A DNA stretch of 38,854 bases from Kiritimatiellia bacterium (lineage in GTDB: Bacteria > Verrucomicrobiota > Kiritimatiellia > UBA8416 > JABMPJ01): the NCBI GenBank assembly GCA_016783675.1, contig JADHWE010000016.1:1-38854 (forward strand), given 5' to 3'. This document shows positions 24,554 through 36,359 of this stretch, one piece after another. Within the stretch, counting starts at the first letter, position 1. Each line of letters starts with the position of its first letter. A program made the position numbers and the translations under genes. Below the pieces are notes generated by a model that made no database searches, was not told the origin of the DNA, and saw only the letters and a program-made list of their open reading frames with translations.

Positions 24554-25867
24554 TTATAGACATGAAGCAAGATAGAGCGGCGCATGGAGCAGTCCGTTGT
24601 CCTGCTGATTCGCTCCTTGCGCGGACAGAAGAACGGCTAGATCAGGCGAGTACTTCTGGCGGAACACCCCCATGCTCTTGGCTTTGGTGTTGAGACCAGC
24701 CTTTACTTCAACGGGGATAGTCTTGCCTTCTTTCGATGTGATGAACTCAATTTCTGATCTACCTTCCCGCCAAGTGTAGACCGGTTTGATCCCGCCGCAT
24801 TTCATCTCGTTGAGCACGGCGTTCTCGGCCAAGAAGCCCTTGAACTGACCAAAGTCGTACTGGTAGAGCACCGATGAATCGAGATCCAACATGGCACCCA
24901 GTATGCCGACATCAAACAAGTAGAGCATAAAGGCGTTCTTTGTCGTGTACGCTGCCAATGGCTGATGGATAGTCCGACAGATCGGCACACGGTGAATCAG
25001 CCCAGCTTGGGAGAGCCATTCGATGGGGGCCTCCAGTTCGTCGTAGCTTGATTTACCGGGAAGCACATCTTTGAAGATGAACTTCCGGATGCCGGTGGTC
25101 TCTCGGGCCAACTGTTCGGGTATGTTGTTAAAGACACCGGCAATACGCATTGCTTTGAGCTTTCCCGAATGCTTGGCAATGTCATCCATATAGGATTCTA
25201 CCAACTCGTTTTGCAGAGACCGCGCCGCCTGAAATGCAGCCACTCGTGTGTCGCGCAACCCGACATAGGTCTCTACCACTTCAGGCAGTCCTCCGCAGAC
25301 TAGATACTCCTTGAACAGTCCGAACGCCTTTTCGTGGATGGGCTGTGACAACGGTGTCTTGTCTCGACCAGTGGATTGCAGCGCCCTCCTGAATGGCTCC
25401 ATACCAAGAGCGTCCACAAATTCGAAGAATGACATCGGATGTAACCACTCCCGCTGCACCTTACCCACCGGGAAATTCTGCTCCGACAGGCCGATACCAA
25501 GAAGCGACCCTGACGCACATATGTATGCCTCAGGATACTTCTCACAGAAGTACTTCAGTGAGGTCAGAGCTTCCGGGCATAGCTGGATTTCATCGAAGAT
25601 TAGCAGAGTGTCTTCCAGCGTGATATCTGCATCAAGATAGAGTCCCAAGTCGGTCAGTATGCGCTTCGGCCTCAAATCGGGCTGAAAGAAACCGTTCAGT
25701 GTCTTGTTCTCTGCGAAATCAAGCAGGATGCAGTTCTTGAACCGTGACTCCCCAAAACGCTTGAGAATCCACGTCTTTCCAACCTGACGCGCGCCCTGAA
25801 TCAGCATCGGCTTTCGCTTAGGAAGAGCTTTCCATGCAGTCAATTCATCCCATAAATATCGTTTCAT
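24554..25867 (-). CDS. AAA ATPase with DUF4143 (ATPase-nuclease-like)
   Basis: This 437-residue protein has an AAA_14-type P-loop (GARQVGKTW near residue 25), Walker B LLIFDEIQ and sensor ASGSLLG. The C-terminal DUF4143 domain ends with a PD-(D/E)xK-like arrangement (EIEFI...IPVEVKAG at about 375-398). Such proteins are abundant, often mobile and lineage-specific; their biological role is poorly known. The start at 25867 (MKRYLWDEL) has GAGGAA upstream. A 16-bp direct repeat covers the ribosome-binding site. It marks the left part of the accessory island and is convergent with the response regulator. Confidence 0.88.
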   Translation of the reverse strand: MKRYLWDELTAWKALPKRKPMLIQGARQVGKTWILKRFGESRFKNCILLDFAENKTLNGFFQPDLRPKRILTDLGLYLDADITLEDTLLIFDEIQLCPEALTSLKYFCEKYPEAYICASGSLLGIGLSEQNFPVGKVQREWLHPMSFFEFVDALGMEPFRRALQSTGRDKTPLSQPIHEKAFGLFKEYLVCGGLPEVVETYVGLRDTRVAAFQAARSLQNELVESYMDDIAKHSGKLKAMRIAGVFNNIPEQLARETTGIRKFIFKDVLPGKSSYDELEAPIEWLSQAGLIHRVPICRTIHQPLAAYTTKNAFMLYLFDVGILGAMLDLDSSVLYQYDFGQFKGFLAENAVLNEMKCGGIKPVYTWREGRSEIEFITSKEGKTIPVEVKAGLNTKAKSMGVFRQKYSPDLAVLLSAQGANQQDNGLLHAPLYLASCL

Positions 25868-25875
25868 GGCTATAT

Positions 25876-25923
25876 ATTCCTCGCATATATTCCGAAATAC
25901 AAGGATTATTCCTCGCATATATT
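25876..25923 (-). promoter_or_regulatory. Paired 16-bp direct repeat at the ATPase start
   Basis: ATTCCTCGCATATATT occurs twice, at 25876-25891 and 25908-25923, 32 bases apart (about three helical turns). The first copy covers the ribosome-binding site of the minus-strand ATPase gene. A repressor site is likely. The region is AT-rich compared with its surroundings. Confidence 0.5.
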
Positions 25924-26221: not shown

Positions 26222-26562
26222 AAACCCAATCCTGCTCTACCGTGCAGAGCCGTGCAACTACCAGTCATATTAATCACTTACGCAATATCAAAAGACGCCA
26301 ATCATGCACCAAAATGCAGCATCTTTGCGCCGCAGTCTACCGGAAGTCTACCGGTGGCCTTTGCCCCGGACGCATGGACTAGGATGAGCTTGCCCCTTCT
26401 GATCTAAGGCCCATTCATGAGTTCAGAGTCTACCGAAGGTCCACCGGAGCTATAGGCTGAGCGCCGCAGTCGACCGAAACCGCCAGCGCAGTCAGTCCAC
26501 ATGTCCGAGGGCTTCCTGGATGCACCGGGCTTGCCATGTGTGTTGAATGTAGAAGACACGGC
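26222..26562. repeat. Long imperfect direct repeat, copy A
   Basis: From AACCCAATCCTGCTCTACCG onward, 26222-26396 matches 34808-34985 at about 85% by eye, and 26461-26562 resumes matching 35065-35160 (CAGTCCACATGTCCG, GTGTGTTGA, TAGAAGACACGG). The repeat is rich in TCTACCGG words. It carries no reading frame I believe. Both copies lie directly upstream of AbiEi-type genes. Copy A lacks the tRNA 3'-end sequence that abuts copy C. Confidence 0.8.
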
Positions 26563-26657: not shown

Positions 26658-27662
26658 ATGAAGCTCCACGAGAAGTTGCGTGAATATCTAGAGCAGGTTG
26701 GCGCTGGCCGGATGCCTCTACAGCACCATCCTGATGCAAGTCGTAAGCTCCCCGTGTTTCTTGGCCAGGCGTATGACGTCTATGCGGCTACGATCTTCGG
26801 GCAGGTTCACATCCTTCTCCTTGCGCGTACTTCGGACAGGCCGACCCCGGCCCAGGCCGCGAAGCACATTCAGATCGCCAGGCAGAGCCTGGGAAGCGAC
26901 GTGGCCTTTGTCTTTCCGGAAATGCCGTCGTTCGACCGGAAGCGGTTTGTCGAAAAGGGCGTTCCGTTCATTGTTCCAGGCAAGCAGACGTTCCTCCCGA
27001 TGGCCTTGGTCGACTTGCGCGAAAGCGGCGGAAGGGCGGTGGCAGTCGCTTATGGGAACACTGATAATCTCTCGGGACCTGCTCAGTCTGTGCTTCTCTA
27101 CTACCTGCAACACCCGGATGCTAACAGATGGTCGCTGAATCAGTGGGCCGCCACGCTGGGCTGCTCACCGAGCACGATGACCCGTGTGCGGGCCGAACTT
27201 GCACAGCACGAGCTTTGTGATGAGGTCGGCGAGATGCGGGCGCTGTTGCTCGTCTTCCCGGAAGACCGGCGAGATTTGTGGGAGAGGATAGAGCAGCGAC
27301 TGGTGTCACCCGTCAGGGACGTGCACCATGTTGCGCTGCAGGGACGTGCAGGAGAGTCACAGCTATTGCGAGCGGGGTTCTCCGCGCTGGCCGAGATGAC
27401 CATGCTGGCGGATCCCCCCGAAGACGTGTACGCGGTCCACTCGCCCAGGTTCCGTGAACTGCTGAGAGCGGGTATAGTGGAGGAGTTGCCTGCGGCAACA
27501 GAGGAGAGTAATGTTGTTGAGAGGTGGCGATATGACCCCGTGCCACTGTCTGTCGAAGGTGAGCGCGTGGACAGGCTCTCGCTTGTGATTTCGCTCCGTG
27601 AAAGTCACGATGAGCGTGTGCAGATCGCACTCGATGAGGTCTTGAAGGGGATGCCATGGTAA
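26658..27662 (+). CDS. AbiEi-like antitoxin/transcriptional regulator
   Basis: A 334-residue protein of the MarR-like/AbiEi type. The N-terminal part (about 1-130) has the block FIVPGKQTFLPMALVDLRE seen in this family. A winged helix follows at about 140-200 (LSGPAQSVLLYYLQHP, WSLNQWAATLGCSPSTMTRV). The C-terminal domain at about 230-334 includes ADPPEDVYAV. It overlaps the nucleotidyltransferase gene by seven bases, the normal order for type IV AbiE toxin-antitoxin pairs, in which the first protein counteracts and autoregulates the toxin. GGTGG precedes the ATG. The family call is from recognised patterns, not a search. Confidence 0.75.
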   Translation: MKLHEKLREYLEQVGAGRMPLQHHPDASRKLPVFLGQAYDVYAATIFGQVHILLLARTSDRPTPAQAAKHIQIARQSLGSDVAFVFPEMPSFDRKRFVEKGVPFIVPGKQTFLPMALVDLRESGGRAVAVAYGNTDNLSGPAQSVLLYYLQHPDANRWSLNQWAATLGCSPSTMTRVRAELAQHELCDEVGEMRALLLVFPEDRRDLWERIEQRLVSPVRDVHHVALQGRAGESQLLRAGFSALAEMTMLADPPEDVYAVHSPRFRELLRAGIVEELPAATEESNVVERWRYDPVPLSVEGERVDRLSLVISLRESHDERVQIALDEVLKGMPW

Positions 27663-28417
27663 GAGGATTGGAAACGTTCCGAAGCCACTTCCGGGACTAC
27701 GTGGACAGCTACGTACTTGTTGGGGGCACGGCGTGCGACCTGTGGATGGGAGCAGCCGGACTGCCTTTCCGTGCCACAAAAGATCTCGACATCGTGCTGG
27801 TTATTGAAGCCCTGAGCCCGGGCTTTGTTGCGCGCTTCTGGGAATTCGTGAGAGCGGCAAAGTACGCAAGCCTGCTGCAAGGCGAGCAACGACCGGAGTT
27901 CTACAGGTTCACCGGGACGTCAGACGAGGCCTACCCCTTCATGATTGAGCTGCTTAGCAGGAACGTGCTGGAGCTACCCGAAGGCACGCACTTGACGCCG
28001 ATCCCGGCTGATGAAGACATCTCCAGTCTCTCAGCGATCCTGTTGGACGACGTTTACTACCAGTTCGTCATGGCAACCCGGACAGAGATCGACGGCGTCC
28101 CGACGATCCCGGCCCAATGCCTCATGCCGCTCAAGGCCAGGGCCTATCTGGACCTCGTCGGACGTAGAGAGGAAGGCGCCCCGGACGTCAAGGGATCAGA
28201 CATCAAAAAGCACCGCAATGACGTGTTCCGGCTCTACGTCACGCTCGCTGCCGCCGACCGATTCGATCTACCCGGTCAACTGGCCGCCGATCTCCGTCGT
28301 TTTCTGGACACCATTCCGGAGGGCGATCAGCCTGCCATCCAGGCGGCCGTCGGTAGAGTGAGCATGCCCGATTTCAACGAAGCGGCTGCAGGCATGCGCC
28401 GCATCTTTCAGCTGTAA
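27656..28417 (+). CDS. AbiEii-like nucleotidyltransferase toxin
   Basis: This 253-residue protein has the nucleotidyltransferase signature: VGG at 22-24, then D43 and D45 in KDLDIVL, the two metal-binding acids. AbiEii toxins are GTP- or NTP-dependent nucleotidyltransferases, and some modify tRNA acceptor ends. A lysine near residue 160 (MPLKARAYLDLVGRR) and the KGSDIKKHRNDVFRL block fit the AbiEii/AbiGii family. It is coupled to the upstream AbiEi-like gene. It looks intact and complete. Confidence 0.82.
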   Translation: MVRGLETFRSHFRDYVDSYVLVGGTACDLWMGAAGLPFRATKDLDIVLVIEALSPGFVARFWEFVRAAKYASLLQGEQRPEFYRFTGTSDEAYPFMIELLSRNVLELPEGTHLTPIPADEDISSLSAILLDDVYYQFVMATRTEIDGVPTIPAQCLMPLKARAYLDLVGRREEGAPDVKGSDIKKHRNDVFRLYVTLAAADRFDLPGQLAADLRRFLDTIPEGDQPAIQAAVGRVSMPDFNEAAAGMRRIFQL

Positions 28418-28566: not shown

Positions 28567-28611
28567 GTGGCGGCACAGGGACTCGAACCCCGGACACGTG
28601 GATTATGATTC
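28567..28611 (-). repeat. Attachment-site-like copy of a tRNA(CAT) 3' end, copy B
   Basis: Read on the minus strand these 45 bases give a CAT anticodon loop (ATCATAA), anticodon-stem 3' half TCCAC, a T arm CGGGG-TTCGAGT-CCCTG and acceptor end TGCCGCC plus A. The 5' half of a tRNA (GGCGGCA, D arm) is missing, so it is not a working tRNA gene. The same 45 bases are repeated without mismatch at 34761-34805. Integrative elements that use tRNA genes leave exactly such displaced 3' ends. Confidence 0.8.
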
Positions 28612-30485: not shown

Positions 30486-31642
30486 GGCATTGGGGTCGGT
30501 CTTTGAAATAAGCTTTACGGGATTAATGTCGATTGGTAGTGTTTGGCCATGGCACGACGACCGCGAGTGGAATTTGCCGGCGCACTTTACCATGTTACCG
30601 CACGCATTATTGGGGAGCGCACGGGGCGGGGGGTAGAGGGAGGGAGTCCATCGCAGTGGCTCTTCCGCGATGAACGGGATCACCAGGCCTTCATGGAGCG
30701 ACTGATCGACCGGATCGATACCTACAACATCCGCCTCTATGCCCACTGTGAAATGCGGACACACTACCATGCCCTGGTCGAGACCCCGCAGGCCAACCTC
30801 GGGCGATTCATGCACAGTCTCAATACGGCCTATACTGGCTTCTACAATGGGCGGTATCGCCGGCATGGCCACCTGTTCCAGGGCCGCTATGGTGCGAAGC
30901 CTGTGGAAGGCGACAACTACCTGCTATCACTCTCCCGCTATATCCATCTCAATCCCGTACACATCAGGAAGGTCAAGGCGTTGCCGGTCTCCGAACAACT
31001 CCGTCATTTGCACGACTTCCGTTGGAGTAGCTACAGGGCATATATCGGCCGGGCCAAGACGCCGGACTGGCTGGAGGCGGGGCCGGTGCTGGCACAGTGC
31101 GGGAGCACAGGGAAGGAGCAGCGCCAGCAGTATCGGCAGTTCGTGGAGAAGAGCCTGTCAGAAGAAGATGAGGAATTGCTCTCTCTATTGGAAGGACCGC
31201 GTCTTGCGATAGGCGGAGATGCCTTTGTGGATGATATCCGCGCCCGCATGATTGAGCGGATGGGTAGCTGCAAGAGGCGGGAAGACGTGAGCCTTCGGCA
31301 TGTCTATGAACGACTGGACCCGGAGGCCGTGTTGGTCATGACGGGAGTGGTCATGGAGGTTGAGCCTGCAGAATTCCGGGTGCGTCGGCGCAACTGCGTA
31401 TTGCGGGCAGTCGCCGCCCGAATGCTCTGCAAGTATGCGGGACTGACGCAGCGGGAAACAGCCGATGTACTAGGGGTCAGCAGCAGCGCCACCGTGAGCA
31501 AGCAACAGGAACGGCTGGCAGAAGAACTGAAGGGCAACCGGCAGCTCCGCCGCCGGGTCGGCCAATTGGAAGCGCGCCTGGCAACTGTGATTCATCCATG
31601 ACCGAAGGCCTAAAGCTTATTTCAAAGACCGACCCCAACGCC
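30486..31642 (+). mobile_element. RAYT transposase unit with terminal inverted repeats
   Basis: The transposase gene is flanked by a perfect 28-bp inverted repeat: 30490-30517 and 31611-31638. Each arm contains GGTCGGTCTTTGAAATAAGC in its own direction. The match extends about six bases further out with one mismatch. RAYT genes are usually flanked by REP-like hairpins; here a clean pair bounds a 1.15-kb unit. I cannot identify a target-site duplication. Confidence 0.75.
30549..31601 (+). CDS. REP-associated tyrosine transposase (Y1_Tnp/RAYT)
   Basis: This 350-residue HUH-family single-strand DNA transposase resembles the IS200/IS605 family. The N-terminal domain (about 1-160) starts RRPRVEFAGALYHVTAR. 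It has the HUH-type histidines in THYHALVETP near residue 78 and a candidate catalytic tyrosine in LSRYIHLNPVHI near residue 140, then a typical FRWSSYRAYIG. The C-terminal part (about 270-330) is a DnaA/HTH-like DNA-binding region (RRNCVLRAVAARM, TQRETADVLGV). RAYTs act on REP palindromes. It looks complete. The ATG at 30549 is preferred to the TTG at 30543. Confidence 0.9.
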   Translation: MARRPRVEFAGALYHVTARIIGERTGRGVEGGSPSQWLFRDERDHQAFMERLIDRIDTYNIRLYAHCEMRTHYHALVETPQANLGRFMHSLNTAYTGFYNGRYRRHGHLFQGRYGAKPVEGDNYLLSLSRYIHLNPVHIRKVKALPVSEQLRHLHDFRWSSYRAYIGRAKTPDWLEAGPVLAQCGSTGKEQRQQYRQFVEKSLSEEDEELLSLLEGPRLAIGGDAFVDDIRARMIERMGSCKRREDVSLRHVYERLDPEAVLVMTGVVMEVEPAEFRVRRRNCVLRAVAARMLCKYAGLTQRETADVLGVSSSATVSKQQERLAEELKGNRQLRRRVGQLEARLATVIHP

Positions 31643-31830: not shown

Positions 31831-31901
31831 GGATATCACAGGATATCCAAAGAGGGGTATATTGCCCCTTGACGCCCTGTCAGGGATATCACAGGATATC
31901 C
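31831..31901 (+). promoter_or_regulatory. Twin 18-bp operators of the XRE-PP2C operon
   Basis: GGATATCACAGGATATCC occurs twice without mismatch, at 31831-31848 and 31884-31901, 53 bases apart. Each contains two GATATC palindromes. The second ends five bases before the ATG at 31907 and covers the ribosome-binding position. A -10-like TATATT (31858-31863) lies between. The XRE domain of the gene product is the obvious candidate ligand. Confidence 0.65.
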
Positions 31902-31906
31902 CCATC

Positions 31907-33196
31907 ATGACACCGGACGAGATACGGGAAACACGACGTGCACGGGGATGGACGCAGGCGGACTTGGCGAAACGGGTCGGTTGCGGTCAGTCCACGATCT
32001 CCATGATCGAGAAGGGCACCCGTGATGCGCCCCTGATCATGGTGGAGGTCGAGCGCGTCCTCATTCAAGAGGAAGACCGCCCCGCCGCGACGACCCAAGC
32101 GGTGCATTTCGTACTACCGGAGTTCGACCGGCTCACGCTGCCTCCCAAGCTCCCGATCAACGTGAGCCGCTGGCAGCGTCCGGACTACACGGGTGACTTC
32201 CTATACATGCAACCCCTTGCTGGCGACGCCGTACTGGTCGCGGCAGTCGATATTGCCGGGCACGGGGCCAGCGCCATGCCGTCGGGGCTCTATCTCCATG
32301 GGTGGCTACGCGGATGGATGCACGGGCAGAGCGCCCCACCTCGACTTGAGAACCTTGTGATCGAGATGTCGAGGGAGCTACGGCAAACAGGTATCGATGC
32401 CACGGGTTTCTTCGCGATCATATCACGTCACCGTAGCCGGCCCCACACGGTAACGTATGAGGCGATCACGTGTGGCTTCCCTCCACCGCTACTTATGACG
32501 GAGACCCCCACGGCGACGCTTGACAGCACGGGCACCGGTCCCTCGTTGCCGGTCAGCGACCAAGAGCAGCTTCAGCCCGTCAGACGGGATGTGTCAGCGC
32601 CATGGCGTCTGGTCATCGCGACTGATGGCATGCTGGGACGGCTGGGGAACCGCAATGAGCAAGACGGGCTTCGCAAGGTGCGGAAGTGGCAGTCGGGCGG
32701 CGAACGAGACCTGCCGCTTGAGTCCTACCTCTCGACGGACTCCGCAGTTGTCGATGATGAGTTGCTTGCGGTGCTTCAGTGGAATGGATGGGACATAAAC
32801 ATGCCGTTTGACGTCGACAGCCACAGCGAACGGCACTGGGCGATAAACATGATTGAGGCGTCAACGGAGCATCTGAGCGAGGAGCGTCGGTCTCGTCTGC
32901 TGCAGGCCCTTGTCGAAGGAATGTCAAACGTGCGGCGTCACGCTTACGGCGGTCAGTCCGGTGTACTGCGCGTGAGATTCCGCGAAGAAGAGAAGAGCTA
33001 CCGAGTGGAAATTCTGGACGAAGGGACGGACAAGGTGACGACGGCTGTGACGAGCAAGCCGAAGAGCGGTTTTTCGATCATGAAGGCGGGAGCCGACGAC
33101 TTCTCCGTACGTCGGAGCCACACTGGCGGCACCGTCGTTGCCCTCGTTGCGAGGAAATTGATATCAAAGACTAGTGGAGGTGAATATGCCCTTTGA
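31907..33196 (+). CDS. XRE - PP2C phosphatase - RsbW-like kinase fusion
   Basis: This 429-residue protein fuses three signalling domains. Residues 1-55 are an XRE helix-turn-helix (RARGWTQADLAKRVGCGQST). Residues about 85-290 are a SpoIIE/PP2C-type phosphatase with its metal acids present: D97 in GDF, D115 in VDIAGHG, D240 in ATDG, and D283/D284. Residues about 300-420 are a GHKL/RsbW-like anti-sigma kinase domain with E337 and N341 in the N box, D371-x-G373 and a GGT at 407-409. Partner-switch phosphatase and kinase normally sit on separate proteins. The gene overlaps a STAS gene by 11 bases. Start 31907 is chosen because the HTH begins there and the operators lie directly upstream. Confidence 0.8.
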   Translation: MTPDEIRETRRARGWTQADLAKRVGCGQSTISMIEKGTRDAPLIMVEVERVLIQEEDRPAATTQAVHFVLPEFDRLTLPPKLPINVSRWQRPDYTGDFLYMQPLAGDAVLVAAVDIAGHGASAMPSGLYLHGWLRGWMHGQSAPPRLENLVIEMSRELRQTGIDATGFFAIISRHRSRPHTVTYEAITCGFPPPLLMTETPTATLDSTGTGPSLPVSDQEQLQPVRRDVSAPWRLVIATDGMLGRLGNRNEQDGLRKVRKWQSGGERDLPLESYLSTDSAVVDDELLAVLQWNGWDINMPFDVDSHSERHWAINMIEASTEHLSEERRSRLLQALVEGMSNVRRHAYGGQSGVLRVRFREEEKSYRVEILDEGTDKVTTAVTSKPKSGFSIMKAGADDFSVRRSHTGGTVVALVARKLISKTSGGEYAL

Positions 33197-33533
33197 TGAC
33201 AGTACTCCTTACGAAGTCGACGAGAGGACAGCGGAGCGGGCGGTCATACGTTTTGCCCCAATCTGTGACCATCAGCGGCTTGCTGAGCATGAGGATGAAC
33301 TCAACAGCGTTGTTGAGCAACACGCCGCCGTGGCTTGCGATATGTCTGAGACCAAGATGATCGCGTCTGACTGGCTCAGATGGATTGCACGGCTAGCAAT
33401 AAAGGCAGAGAAGGCTGGCACGACCTTCGCCGTGGCCGGTGTAAATGACATCGTCAGTCAAACGGCAGACCTGTTGGGTATTAAGGAATCCCTGACAGTC
33501 GTAGATTCGGTAGAGGACGTTTGGTCGCTATGA
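33186..33533 (+). CDS. STAS-domain protein (SpoIIAA/RsbV-like)
   Basis: A 115-residue protein with the STAS fold pattern: beta strand VACDMSETKMIASDWLRW, helix, TTFAVAGVND and LGIKESLTVVDSVEDV. S61 lies where SpoIIAA-type antagonists carry their phosphorylated serine, although the local sequence is IASDW instead of DSSG. GGAGG precedes the ATG at 33186. As the gene is coupled to the phosphatase-kinase fusion, it is the expected substrate and switch partner. Its ATGA stop overlaps the dehydrogenase start. Confidence 0.75.
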   Translation: MPFDDSTPYEVDERTAERAVIRFAPICDHQRLAEHEDELNSVVEQHAAVACDMSETKMIASDWLRWIARLAIKAEKAGTTFAVAGVNDIVSQTADLLGIKESLTVVDSVEDVWSL

Positions 33534-34477
33534 AAGTCGGCGTATGGGGAGCAGGAAGCATTGGCGCAGGGCTGGCGTATCGACTGACGACGTTGCCGGT
33601 CGTGTCGGAGCTCGTCTGGATCAACCGGACGATCCAGAAGATCGAGAAGCAGGTCATTGACCTCACTCACGGACTATCGTTCGCGCCAACCTGCCACACC
33701 GTGCGCGCCTGTGAACAGGCGCATGCGGCCCGGGAAATGCCAACGCTTGATCTCTTGGTCTTGACGCTCGGGGCATCGGTAAAGGAGGGCGAGACGCGGG
33801 ACCAGAAGTACCCGGTGAACGCTGGTATGCTTCGGGAATCGGTATTGCCTGCGTTGCAAGCTGGGTTTAAGGGAATCATTCTCGTGATCACCAACCCCGT
33901 GGATCTCGTTGCGCGCCTGGTTCATGTGGAGGGCGGCGTGGCAGCCGACAAAGTGCTTGGGCTGGGGACGGTTGTCGAAACAGCCCGGTTACGCAGCAGC
34001 CTTGCCAGCTATCTGTCACCCCGCCGAGCGCCAAGAGATGTGCGGGCCTACGCAGTGGGGACACATGACCCGCAGTTTGTGCCCATCGTGAATGGGGAAG
34101 TTGCCGCCGGCGACAACACTCCGGGCGAAGTACTGGAAGGCATCGTTGAGTGCGCCAGACGAGAGGTCGCCAACGGGGCTGAGCGGGTGAAGACAGGAGA
34201 ACGTTCGTCCCTTCATCCGATTGTGGAGGGCGCCGTCGAGGTCATTGAGGCCATAGGGCTGAACAAGCGCAGTGCCCTGACGGTGTCCGTGCTCGATCCG
34301 GACTCCGGCGAAGACAAGCTCTTCTACTCAATGCCATGCACCGTCGGTCGAGACGGCAACCTCCGCCGGTTCGACGACATCCTGGGGGATTCGGCCGTTC
34401 GCGACCAGATCAGTCGGTGCTGCGACAGTCTGCGTGCCGTTCTTCAAGCAGCCGACGAGCTGCCGAGGGTGACGTGA
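33530..34477 (+). CDS. Lactate/malate dehydrogenase homologue
   Basis: A 315-residue Rossmann enzyme. The nucleotide loop GAGSIG is at 7-12, the substrate arginine R90 in GETR, TNPVD at 121-125 and the catalytic histidine H179 in GTHD. Two deviations stand out: the position of the catalytic aspartate (D-S-A-R in the family) is E150 in ETAR, and the residue after the second strand, usually acidic for NAD, is N32 followed by R33, which could favour NADP. Length is normal. Being coupled to a partner-switch pair is unusual for this enzyme, so a signalling or sensing use is possible. The start is the ATG at 33530. Confidence 0.75.
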   Translation: MKVGVWGAGSIGAGLAYRLTTLPVVSELVWINRTIQKIEKQVIDLTHGLSFAPTCHTVRACEQAHAAREMPTLDLLVLTLGASVKEGETRDQKYPVNAGMLRESVLPALQAGFKGIILVITNPVDLVARLVHVEGGVAADKVLGLGTVVETARLRSSLASYLSPRRAPRDVRAYAVGTHDPQFVPIVNGEVAAGDNTPGEVLEGIVECARREVANGAERVKTGERSSLHPIVEGAVEVIEAIGLNKRSALTVSVLDPDSGEDKLFYSMPCTVGRDGNLRRFDDILGDSAVRDQISRCCDSLRAVLQAADELPRVT

Positions 34478-34635
34478 AGAAGAAGGCTGTTGCAGGCTAT
34501 GTGTTCCACGTCGCCATTGTAGGTGCGCCCGACATATGGCGGCGAATCCGTATCCGGGCCGACTGGACGCTATGGGAGTTGCACGAGGCCATCACCGTCT
34601 CCACCCGGCCCAAGTTCCTGCCAACATCAGCCTGA
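34474..34635 (+). pseudogene. Truncated pRiA4b ORF-3 family gene
   Basis: Fifty-three codons from the GTG at 34474, overlapping the dehydrogenase stop, read VAGYVFHVAIVGAP then DIWRRIRIRADWTLWELHEAI, the N-terminal signature of the pRiA4b ORF-3 family (normally about 180 residues or more). The frame then degenerates and stops, about 125 bases before the attachment-like repeat. The operon has therefore lost most of its fourth gene. Confidence 0.7.
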
Positions 34636-34760: not shown

Positions 34761-34805
34761 GTGGCGGCACAGGGACTCGAACCCCGGACACGTGGATTAT
34801 GATTC
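34761..34805 (-). repeat. Attachment-site-like copy of a tRNA(CAT) 3' end, copy C
   Basis: Identical over 45 bases to 28567-28611 and in the same orientation. The identity breaks in the anticodon stem-loop, a common crossover region for tyrosine integrases. The flank on the higher-coordinate side (TTTACC, then the long repeat C) differs from a tRNA 5' half, so again no complete tRNA. Confidence 0.8.
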
Positions 34806-34807
34806 GG

Positions 34808-35160
34808 TAAACCCAATCCTGCTCTACCGTGCAGAGTCGTGCAACTACCCGTTATATCAATCACTTGCGGCATACCGAAAGACGCCAATCATGCAGCGAA
34901 ATGCAACAAGTTTGCGCCGCAGTCTACCGGGAGTCTACCGGAGACCTTTCCCCCGGACGTGTGGATCAAGATGAACTTGATCCCCTGATTGCGGGTTAGA
35001 TCATGATTTCAGCTCACTACCGGATCCGTAACCGGAGCTGGAGCCTGTAGAGTAGGCTGCGCGCCGCAGTCTACCGAAACAGCCGGCACGCCCAGTCCAC
35101 ATGTCCGTGGGATTCCCGCAGGGGCTGGACTGCCGTGTGTGTTGAGTATAGAAGACACGG
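34808..35160. repeat. Long imperfect direct repeat, copy C
   Basis: Partner of 26222-26562. It begins three bases after the tRNA 3'-end copy and ends about 50 bases before the AbiEi-2 operator. The opening bases contain GGTAGAGCAG when read on the minus strand, a D-arm-like word, and AAGTGATTGATATAACG. No believable gene lies within it. Confidence 0.8.
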
Positions 35161-35212: not shown

Positions 35213-35264
35213 GTTCTCTATGTGGGTATGTTTTCTCTTGACAAAATCGACCCATATAGAGAAC
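35213..35264 (+). promoter_or_regulatory. 15-bp inverted repeat ahead of AbiEi-2
   Basis: GTTCTCTATGTGGGT (35213-35227) and ACCCATATAGAGAAC (35250-35264) are inverted copies with one mismatch, separated by 22 bases that contain a -35-like TTGACA. AbiEi proteins repress their promoters through paired inverted repeats, so this is a strong operator candidate. It also argues against a translation start at 35220. Confidence 0.65.
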
Positions 35265-35291
35265 TTGTGGGCGAGCAAGGGGAGGTCTGCC

Positions 35292-36359
35292 ATGCAGAGA
35301 TACGAAGAGACTATCTTAGAATCGGGCATCAAGCGACTGGGCGATATGCTCGACCGGTCTGGCTTTCACGGGCACCATTTGCGTTCCCCGCGTTCTGGTG
35401 AATCAGATGGAGTCTTTGAAGTTCCGTGCGAGGGGGTCACCCTCTATCTTGAAGTGAGGGACTCGCTACACCCTTACCAAGTCAAGCAGATCGTAGAGAG
35501 GAATTCGCAACGGCTTCAGCGTGAAGACGGAACCAATCAGAAGGTACTCGTCGTTCTGGTTCGCGATCTAACGCGATCAACCCTTGACCAATGCATTGAG
35601 TCGGGACTTTGTGTGCTGACCGAAGGCGGCAATGGCTACATTCGCTTCACTCGATTTCTGTATCATCGCTTTGTACCGGCCAAGTCCAGACGCAAGTCAA
35701 GCAGCGGACCGGGCTCCATCTTCTCCGCGAAGGCGTCACGGATCGTTCGGGCCATGTTGGCCCGATATCCAGATCCATGGTCGCAGTCGGCACTCGTGGG
35801 TGAAGCCGATATAAGCCGAGGATACGTGAGCTCCGTGGTCAAGAAGATGCTTGATGCTGATTATGTGCGACGCGACAACGGTCGCCTCCGGGTTGTTGAC
35901 CCTGACCGTCTACTGGATGACTGGGCGGCCCGATACAGGTTTGACCGGCACAACCGGTCTCGGTTCGCCATCAGTATGGGCGAATACGGACAGGGCCTTC
36001 GAAAGTTCCAGCAGGAGATGCGACGCCACGACATCCGATGTGCATTGACCGCTTGGAGCGCGGCATATCTTCGCGCATCGTACGGGTCGCCGGATTCGAT
36101 TGTGGCGTACGTCGATCGTCCCGTTTTCAGCCTGAATCTCAGGTCTCTTCATGAGGTCGAAGGAAAAGGAAACGTACTTGTGCTTGTGCCCCAGGATGAG
36201 GGCGTCTTCCAGTTTGGGCAGGAAACTGATCTCGGATACGTTGTCTCGGATGTCCAGTGCTATCTCGACCTTCTCAACCTGCCCGGTCGGGCCTCCGAGC
36301 AGGCTGAGGTATTGCGTGAGAAGCGATTAGATTTCAAGGAGATGATTGATGCCAAGTAA
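35292..36359 (+). CDS. AbiEi_2-type antitoxin/transcriptional regulator
   Basis: A 355-residue protein of the type IV AbiEi_2 class. The N-terminal half (about 1-145) looks like a restriction-nuclease-like fold with VTLYLEVRDSLHPYQ and QKVLVVLVRDLT. A winged helix at about 150-215 has FSAKASRIVRAML, ISRGYVSSVVKKM and a following LRVVDPDRLLDDWAARYRF. The C-terminal half is the conserved partner domain (FQQEMRRHDIRCALTAWSAA). The ATG at 35292 has GGGGAGG just upstream. Its end overlaps the start of a toxin gene that is cut off after about ten codons, so the antitoxin is now orphaned. Confidence 0.82.
   Translation: MQRYEETILESGIKRLGDMLDRSGFHGHHLRSPRSGESDGVFEVPCEGVTLYLEVRDSLHPYQVKQIVERNSQRLQREDGTNQKVLVVLVRDLTRSTLDQCIESGLCVLTEGGNGYIRFTRFLYHRFVPAKSRRKSSSGPGSIFSAKASRIVRAMLARYPDPWSQSALVGEADISRGYVSSVVKKMLDADYVRRDNGRLRVVDPDRLLDDWAARYRFDRHNRSRFAISMGEYGQGLRKFQQEMRRHDIRCALTAWSAAYLRASYGSPDSIVAYVDRPVFSLNLRSLHEVEGKGNVLVLVPQDEGVFQFGQETDLGYVVSDVQCYLDLLNLPGRASEQAEVLREKRLDFKEMIDAK

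Follow-up and report, generated by a model that had tools for sequence, protein, structure and literature searches.

The window, by which we mean the whole stretch of 38,854 nucleotides from a Kiritimatiellia bacterium analyzed here, carries a real, conserved and apparently undescribed three-gene variant of partner switching. An XRE DNA-binding domain, a PP2C phosphatase and an RsbW-like GHKL kinase are fused in one chain, and the fusion gene is coupled to genes for a STAS protein and for a homolog of lactate and malate dehydrogenases (LDH and MDH). Our preferred reading, which we hold to be about evenly balanced between right and wrong, is that these three coupled genes make up a mobile, self-contained partner switch whose output is the XRE domain in the same chain, and whose input is most likely the LDH-like protein.

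Gene organization of the module

The module observed at 31831–34635 was confirmed with refined boundaries, and consists of a three-gene core of approximately 2.6 kb and a PRiA4_ORF3 remnant (Table 1). The fusion most likely starts at the ATG at 31907, versus 31862 for the mechanical open reading frame. An earlier note on this DNA had claimed translational coupling, and neighboring frames do overlap, by 11 nt between the fusion and STAS genes, by 4 nt between the STAS and LDH genes, and by 4 nt between the LDH gene and the remnant. The domain calls of that note were also borne out by profile searches, with E-values of 1.7e-10 (HTH_3), 4.9e-10 (SpoIIE) and 3.6e-10 (HATPase_c_2) for the fusion, 2.7e-7 (STAS_2) and 2.2e-6 (STAS) for the STAS protein, and 1.5e-19 (Ldh_1_N) for the LDH-like protein, all above the Pfam curated cut-offs. 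The Ldh_1_C match, at 21.7 bits, fell just under its cut-off of 22.6. The PRiA4_ORF3 match was likewise just under its cut-off, at 25.3 bits versus 26.6, and covered profile positions 3–37 of 173.

Table 1. Positions of the module features in the window.
Feature	Position	Strand	Remarks
Operator-like box 1	31831..31848		GGATATCACAGGATATCC; 7-bp inverted arms, 4-bp spacer (GGATATC-N4-GATATCC); overlaps -35
Operator-like box 2	31884..31901		GGATATCACAGGATATCC, identical to box 1; ends 5 nt ahead of start codon
XRE-PP2C-GHKL fusion, 429 aa	31907..33196	+	HTH residues 6-42, PP2C/SpoIIE ~79-295, RsbW-like kinase ~305-415
STAS protein, 115 aa, putative anti-sigma-factor-antagonist-like	33186..33533	+	ATG at 33186; Ser61 codon 33366-33368
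LDH/MDH-like dehydrogenase, 315 aa	33530..34477	+	Ldh_1_N match, residue set
PRiA4_ORF3 remnant, 53 aa	34474..34635	+	Outside conserved core; ends shortly before att-like repeat
45-nt identical repeat, right copy	34761..34805		Left copy 28567-28611; possible attachment-site scar

Homologous loci and distribution

The module is known from three instances: the window, the Deltaproteobacteria MAG SZUA-265 (G538, locus L040), and genome G566. A motif-weighted scan of GTDB contigs, steered by an artificial alignment in which the non-motif positions had been varied and which itself carries no evidence, returned SZUA-265 as its one true relative (LDH 47% identical over residues 1–175), and a search of the phylum of SZUA-265 gave G566 (LDH 46% identical over residues 1–307, E 1.6e-67). 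The earlier note had asked whether other genomes keep these genes together, and the fusion–STAS–LDH order of the window is repeated at both loci. That note had counted a pRiA4b ORF-3 gene as a fourth member. Neither homologous locus has an adjoining PRiA4_ORF3 gene, and the window holds only a stub; we therefore rejected this gene as part of the module and take the unit to be three genes.

The G566 module is intact (XRE-PP2C-kinase 406 aa, STAS ~109 aa, LDH 307 aa). At SZUA-265 the fusion is without the XRE domain and half of the PP2C domain, the STAS protein is without its first half, and the stretch of the LDH with the catalytic His is deleted; despite these deletions, all three frames are open and joined by 4-nt overlaps.

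The LDH profile (E <= 1e-36) matched three of 290 sampled genomes of the class of SZUA-265 and G566, namely these two and G951, whose protein has the motifs of an ordinary housekeeping LDH and was rejected as a module member. The fusion profile matched SZUA-265 and G566 among 280 sampled genomes of that class, with the LDH adjacent both times. In the families to which SZUA-265 and G566 belong, one genome out of 34 and one out of 108 carry the LDH. In the window's class the module LDH was found in 1 of 346 genomes, that of the window itself, and no second copy was found in the window's phylum or class in 289 genomes searched for the fusion or 345 others searched for the LDH. Absence from these 345 genomes indicates that the module is sporadic and probably mobile. 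From strict linkage combined with sporadic occurrence, we infer horizontal movement of the three-gene unit, probably between distant bacteria.

Plasmids, phages and viral contigs yielded no close relative in direct searches, and five inspected neighborhoods of plasmid LDHs held no switch genes. Eleven other matches of the pattern scan were of low identity, and the two inspected (L041 and L042) are ordinary LDH/MDH-like proteins. Two XRE matches in the window's phylum or class (L008 and L011) proved to be unrelated XRE proteins with cysteine pairs, and a stand-alone LDH in SZUA-265 (L053), of the Asn-Arg (NR) type described below, has no partner-switch neighbors.

Phosphatase, kinase and STAS residues

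The earlier note had made its idea depend on conservation of the kinase and phosphatase residues in homologs, and these residues are indeed kept. In the kinase domain, E337-x3-N341 and D371-x-G373, aligned to SpoIIAB, are invariant in all three copies; the HATPase_c_2 match and these positions identify a GHKL serine kinase with N-box and G1 box, a feature of partner switching. The SpoIIE match and its motifs likewise place in the fusion the PP2C phosphatase characteristic of Rsb/SpoII-type switches. Both intact copies keep GD, DIAG, [TS]DG and a C-terminal Asp-Glu: the window has GD 96–97, DIAG 115–118, TDG 239–241 and DDE 283–285, and G566 has GD, DIAG, SDG and ADE, with Ala for the first Asp of the last pair. 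The G566 fusion also has Asn in place of the His of DxxGHG, and its SpoIIE score of 23.6 bits lies just under the cut-off of 25.

Searches of the STAS protein or the kinase domain alone against PDB with phmmer gave nothing useful, and profiles were therefore used for these comparisons. Ser61 of the STAS protein aligns with the phospho-serine of TM1442; the three copies have Ser, Ser and Thr at this position. This alignment predicts a STAS partner with a phospho-acceptor Ser or Thr, as partner switching uses; the Asp that precedes the phospho-serine in classical antagonists is not retained in the module STAS protein. Predicted structures, made from three-sequence alignments, were of low confidence (mean pLDDT 49 for the fusion, and 65). 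The closest solved structure to the low-confidence fusion model was the RsbU-RsbW tandem of Rv1364c (3ke6, E 2e-12).

The dehydrogenase

The three module LDHs group in one clade (support 100/99) that excludes the other LDH/MDH proteins in the comparison; owing to several long branches, its deeper placement is unsure. A Rossmann NAD(P)-binding domain is indicated by the Ldh_1_N match and by the predicted fold, which matches LDH structures. Arg90, Asn122, Arg153 and His179 are retained in the window protein, and across the module LDHs the equivalents of Arg109, Asn140 and Arg171 are kept, with that of His195 in the two intact copies. In NAD enzymes the second strand of the Rossmann fold ends in an Asp. 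The window protein has Asn32-Arg33 at the cofactor ribose site, presumably the NADP(H)-type motif of Rossmann enzymes, and by this motif the module dehydrogenase is probably of the NADP(H) type. The specificity position 102 is Gln in LDH and Arg in MDH; in the window protein it is Val, which suggests a hydrophobic 2-keto acid as substrate or loss of the usual one. Glu150 replaces Asp168.

Departures common to the clade are the NR motif, Val102, Glu for Asp168, and a GTHD motif one residue shorter than GEHGD. The NR motif also occurs in the archaeal L042 and in the stand-alone L053, and Glu for Asp168 also in L041. With Glu for Asp168 and Val102, the clade lacks a complete canonical active site and an LDH or MDH specificity residue. 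Judged by its residues, the module dehydrogenase is a member of the superfamily assignable neither as LDH nor as MDH, and is neither a housekeeping LDH nor plainly dead.

Operator-like boxes and genomic setting

The earlier note had proposed that the fusion has its own operators, and two perfect, operator-like 18-bp boxes do flank the start. The sole promoter-like match lies at 31835–31863 (ATCACA-17-TATATT), and is at chance level by itself. No third GGATATC-N4-GATATCC site with at most one mismatch was found in the 2.6-Mb assembly (71.6% complete). The boxes are thus unique in the assembly, and any action of the XRE domain looks dedicated to the module operon. An HTH_3 domain together with repeats at its own promoter is the feature set of an XRE regulator of its own operon, and the role of the repeats as operators is predicted from it. 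G566 has, directly ahead of its start codon, two perfectly matching 12-bp inverted arms separated by 22 nt (ATATTTACTAAT and ATTAGTAAATAT).

The module lies in an accessory stretch at 24.5–36.4 kb of the window, along with an AAA/DUF4143 protein, AbiE-like genes, HipBA, a Y1 transposase with 32-nt inverted ends, an AbiEi_2 gene and long direct repeats; the remaining window holds mostly housekeeping and surface-protein genes, where tested. The 45-nt repeat probably represents the 3' portion of a tRNA gene lying on the opposite strand, and ARAGORN found no whole tRNA. In G566 the module is followed by a 249-aa protein without a Pfam match, and then by HigBA, a HicB-like antitoxin and a weak ParE match. 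Two of the three copies thus adjoin toxin-antitoxin genes, and no such neighbors were found at SZUA-265. PADLOC returned no model beyond generic HTH-level matches and a weak PglX-like score. The three core proteins matched no toxin family, which a type II toxin-antitoxin system would have along with a cognate antitoxin.

Proposed mechanism and alternatives

In established partner switches, a kinase and a phosphatase work against each other to set the phosphorylation of a STAS protein, and this state decides whether the STAS protein binds the kinase (PMC11418112). The kinase–phosphatase–STAS half of our model follows from the known families. The RsbW-like domain would phosphorylate Ser61 of the STAS protein, the PP2C domain of the same chain would remove the phosphate, and the unphosphorylated STAS protein would bind the kinase domain, like SpoIIAA and RsbV. 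The output would be the fused XRE domain and not a sigma factor of the operon; no sigma factor or other released partner is encoded in the three-gene unit at any of the three loci. By binding two operators that bracket the promoter, the XRE domain may repress its own operon, and binding of the STAS protein to the kinase domain, or its release, would alter this repression by changing how the XRE domain occupies the two boxes. The LDH-like protein would be the input, a 2-hydroxyacid dehydrogenase whose ligand state may set the balance of kinase and phosphatase. A more specific proposal, which we hold only tentatively and would put somewhat below even balance, is that of a mobile one-operon signaling device: partner switching would act on the XRE repressor within its own chain, a dedicated homolog of pyridine-nucleotide dehydrogenases would gate it, and the phosphorylation switch would directly read or change the cell's redox or 2-keto-acid state.

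The dehydrogenase could instead be the effector: the switch would set how much of it is made, via the XRE operators, or how active it is, via STAS binding, and would thereby alter the NADP(H) or 2-keto acid pool under stress. Its place as the last conserved, translationally coupled gene agrees with this, as does a catalytic set that is nearly complete (Arg109, Asn140, Arg171 and His195 equivalents, with Glu for Asp168). However, the frame in SZUA-265 is open despite the loss of the His195 region, so that something other than catalysis may have been kept, and the substitutions would fit a ligand-binding sensor equally; we regard an effector role as rather doubtful. It is unlikely, in our judgment, that the module is a conventional switch in which the kinase domain acts as an anti-sigma factor on a sigma factor encoded in the chromosome, the XRE domain doing no more than limiting its own expression. 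HsbR and CrsR, which have the same phosphatase-kinase fusion, bind RpoS (PMC6482189), and operators at the module promoter only are what pure autoregulation predicts; but a unit that moves among distant phyla would have to find its target in every host, none of the three copies encodes a sigma factor, and the dedicated dehydrogenase would be left unexplained.

Another conceivable role is that of a toxin-antitoxin-like or anti-phage system, in which a disturbed switch would release a growth-stopping action of the dehydrogenase. The HipBA and AbiE-type genes beside the window copy, the HigBA, HicB-like and weak ParE matches near the G566 copy, and a sporadic occurrence that suits a mobile accessory system point in this direction, but the generic PADLOC result, the lack of a toxin fold, the SZUA-265 copy without such neighbors, and the tendency of islands to gather passengers as well make it quite unlikely. 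The full length of the three genes in the window, with catalytic positions, overlaps and two perfect operators intact, renders it very improbable that a formerly functional module is decaying as a passenger in an island scar, even though the adjoining PRiA4_ORF3 is a stub, the SZUA-265 copy has large deletions, and the window copy lies amid a transposase and att-like repeats.

Usual partner switches end in a sigma factor and receive their signal via receiver, PAS or stressosome parts. The module described here seems to end in a repressor built into the chain of the switch itself, and its dehydrogenase clade is passed on solely together with the switch. The module may be tied to redox or metabolite state. 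Were the dehydrogenase a sensor, it would link a metabolic enzyme directly to the kinase/phosphatase balance; were it an effector, partner switching would be applied to metabolism and not to transcription.

Comparison with known systems

No operon of this kind was found described in the literature searches. New in it are an XRE domain at the position usually held by a sensor domain, operators of its own, and a dehydrogenase that is inherited together with the switch. Rv1364c of Mycobacterium tuberculosis (sensor-PP2C-RsbW-STAS in one chain) has the phosphatase followed by the GHKL kinase, as in the window fusion, and is both the best structural (3ke6) and the best profile match to the fusion family. 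Its N-terminus, however, is a sensor and not an XRE domain, and its antagonist domain lies in the same chain. Both activities toward its own STAS-type domain are described in the available part of PMC7693655, which mentions no dehydrogenase gene.

HsbR-HsbA of Pseudomonas aeruginosa and CrsR-CrsA of Shewanella also combine PP2C and kinase in one protein with a separate anti-sigma-factor antagonist, but have an N-terminal receiver domain in place of XRE, and their outputs are sigma factors, FlgM or a diguanylate cyclase; the accessible portion of the source describes no dehydrogenase for them (PMC6482189). SypE of Vibrio fischeri likewise carries kinase and phosphatase in one chain that acts on a STAS protein, SypA, but in the order kinase-REC-PP2C and without a DNA-binding domain (PMC10120452). 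The SpoIIE/SpoIIAB/SpoIIAA and RsbU/RsbW/RsbV switches of Bacillus subtilis are alike in catalytic logic, conserved residues and position of the STAS phospho-serine (PMC11418112). They differ in having separate chains and a sigma-factor partner, and are without XRE and dehydrogenase.

L-lactate/malate dehydrogenases (PF00056/PF02866) have the Rossmann N-domain and most active-site residues in common with the module LDH, but are without the clade's combination of NR, Val102, Glu168 and GTHD. Plasmid and phage LDH/MDH matches were 23–29% identical to the window protein, and solved LDH structures match it along its whole length.

Genomic neighborhood of the module

Comparison of the long direct repeats in the window showed that they match over three segments (171 nt at 86%, 79 nt at 78% and 30 nt at 90%), and the edge of the island is duplicated in a nested arrangement. 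AbiE-like genes, HipBA, a transposase and the module are enclosed between the repeats. No toxin partner was noticed adjoining the second AbiEi_2 protein. The transposase, which resembles REP-associated transposases, lies immediately 5' of the module, and its element carries 32-nt inverted repeats (97% complementary) on either side.

Features near the module and in other genomes that carry it
Feature	Location	Remark
AAA_14/DUF4143 ATPase	window 24554-25918	PADLOC candidate model PDC-S01 match, 2.6e-133
Long direct repeats	window 26222-26561 and 34809-35160	~8.6 kb apart
AbiE-type piece	window 26658-27662	family match not confident
AbiE-type piece	window 27656-28417	AbiEii match slightly under cut-off
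Y1/IS200-like transposase	window 30543-31601	element with inverted repeats, 30486-31642
Second AbiEi_2 protein	window 35220-36359	
HigBA, HicB-like antitoxin, weak ParE-type match	L056 11197-13894	3' of the intact module of a second genome (G566)
Stand-alone LDH-like protein (L053)	L067 7932-8909	Deltaproteobacteria MAG SZUA-265 (G538)

The window fusion, a stand-alone LDH-like protein and the SZUA-265 copy

DUF7008/BREX PglX C-terminal models matched the phosphatase-kinase linker region of the window fusion (residues 253-344) weakly, with values between 0.0025 and 0.06; these hits may be due to chance. The stand-alone LDH-like protein of SZUA-265 has the Asn-Arg cofactor motif, yet its Asp168 and GEHGDS are ordinary, and there are no switch genes near it. 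The module locus of that genome (L040 6577-8431) retains three adjoining module genes, each with large deletions, which may represent decay, a trimmed functional form or an assembly artefact; every frame is open despite the deletions, with 4-nt overlaps between the genes.
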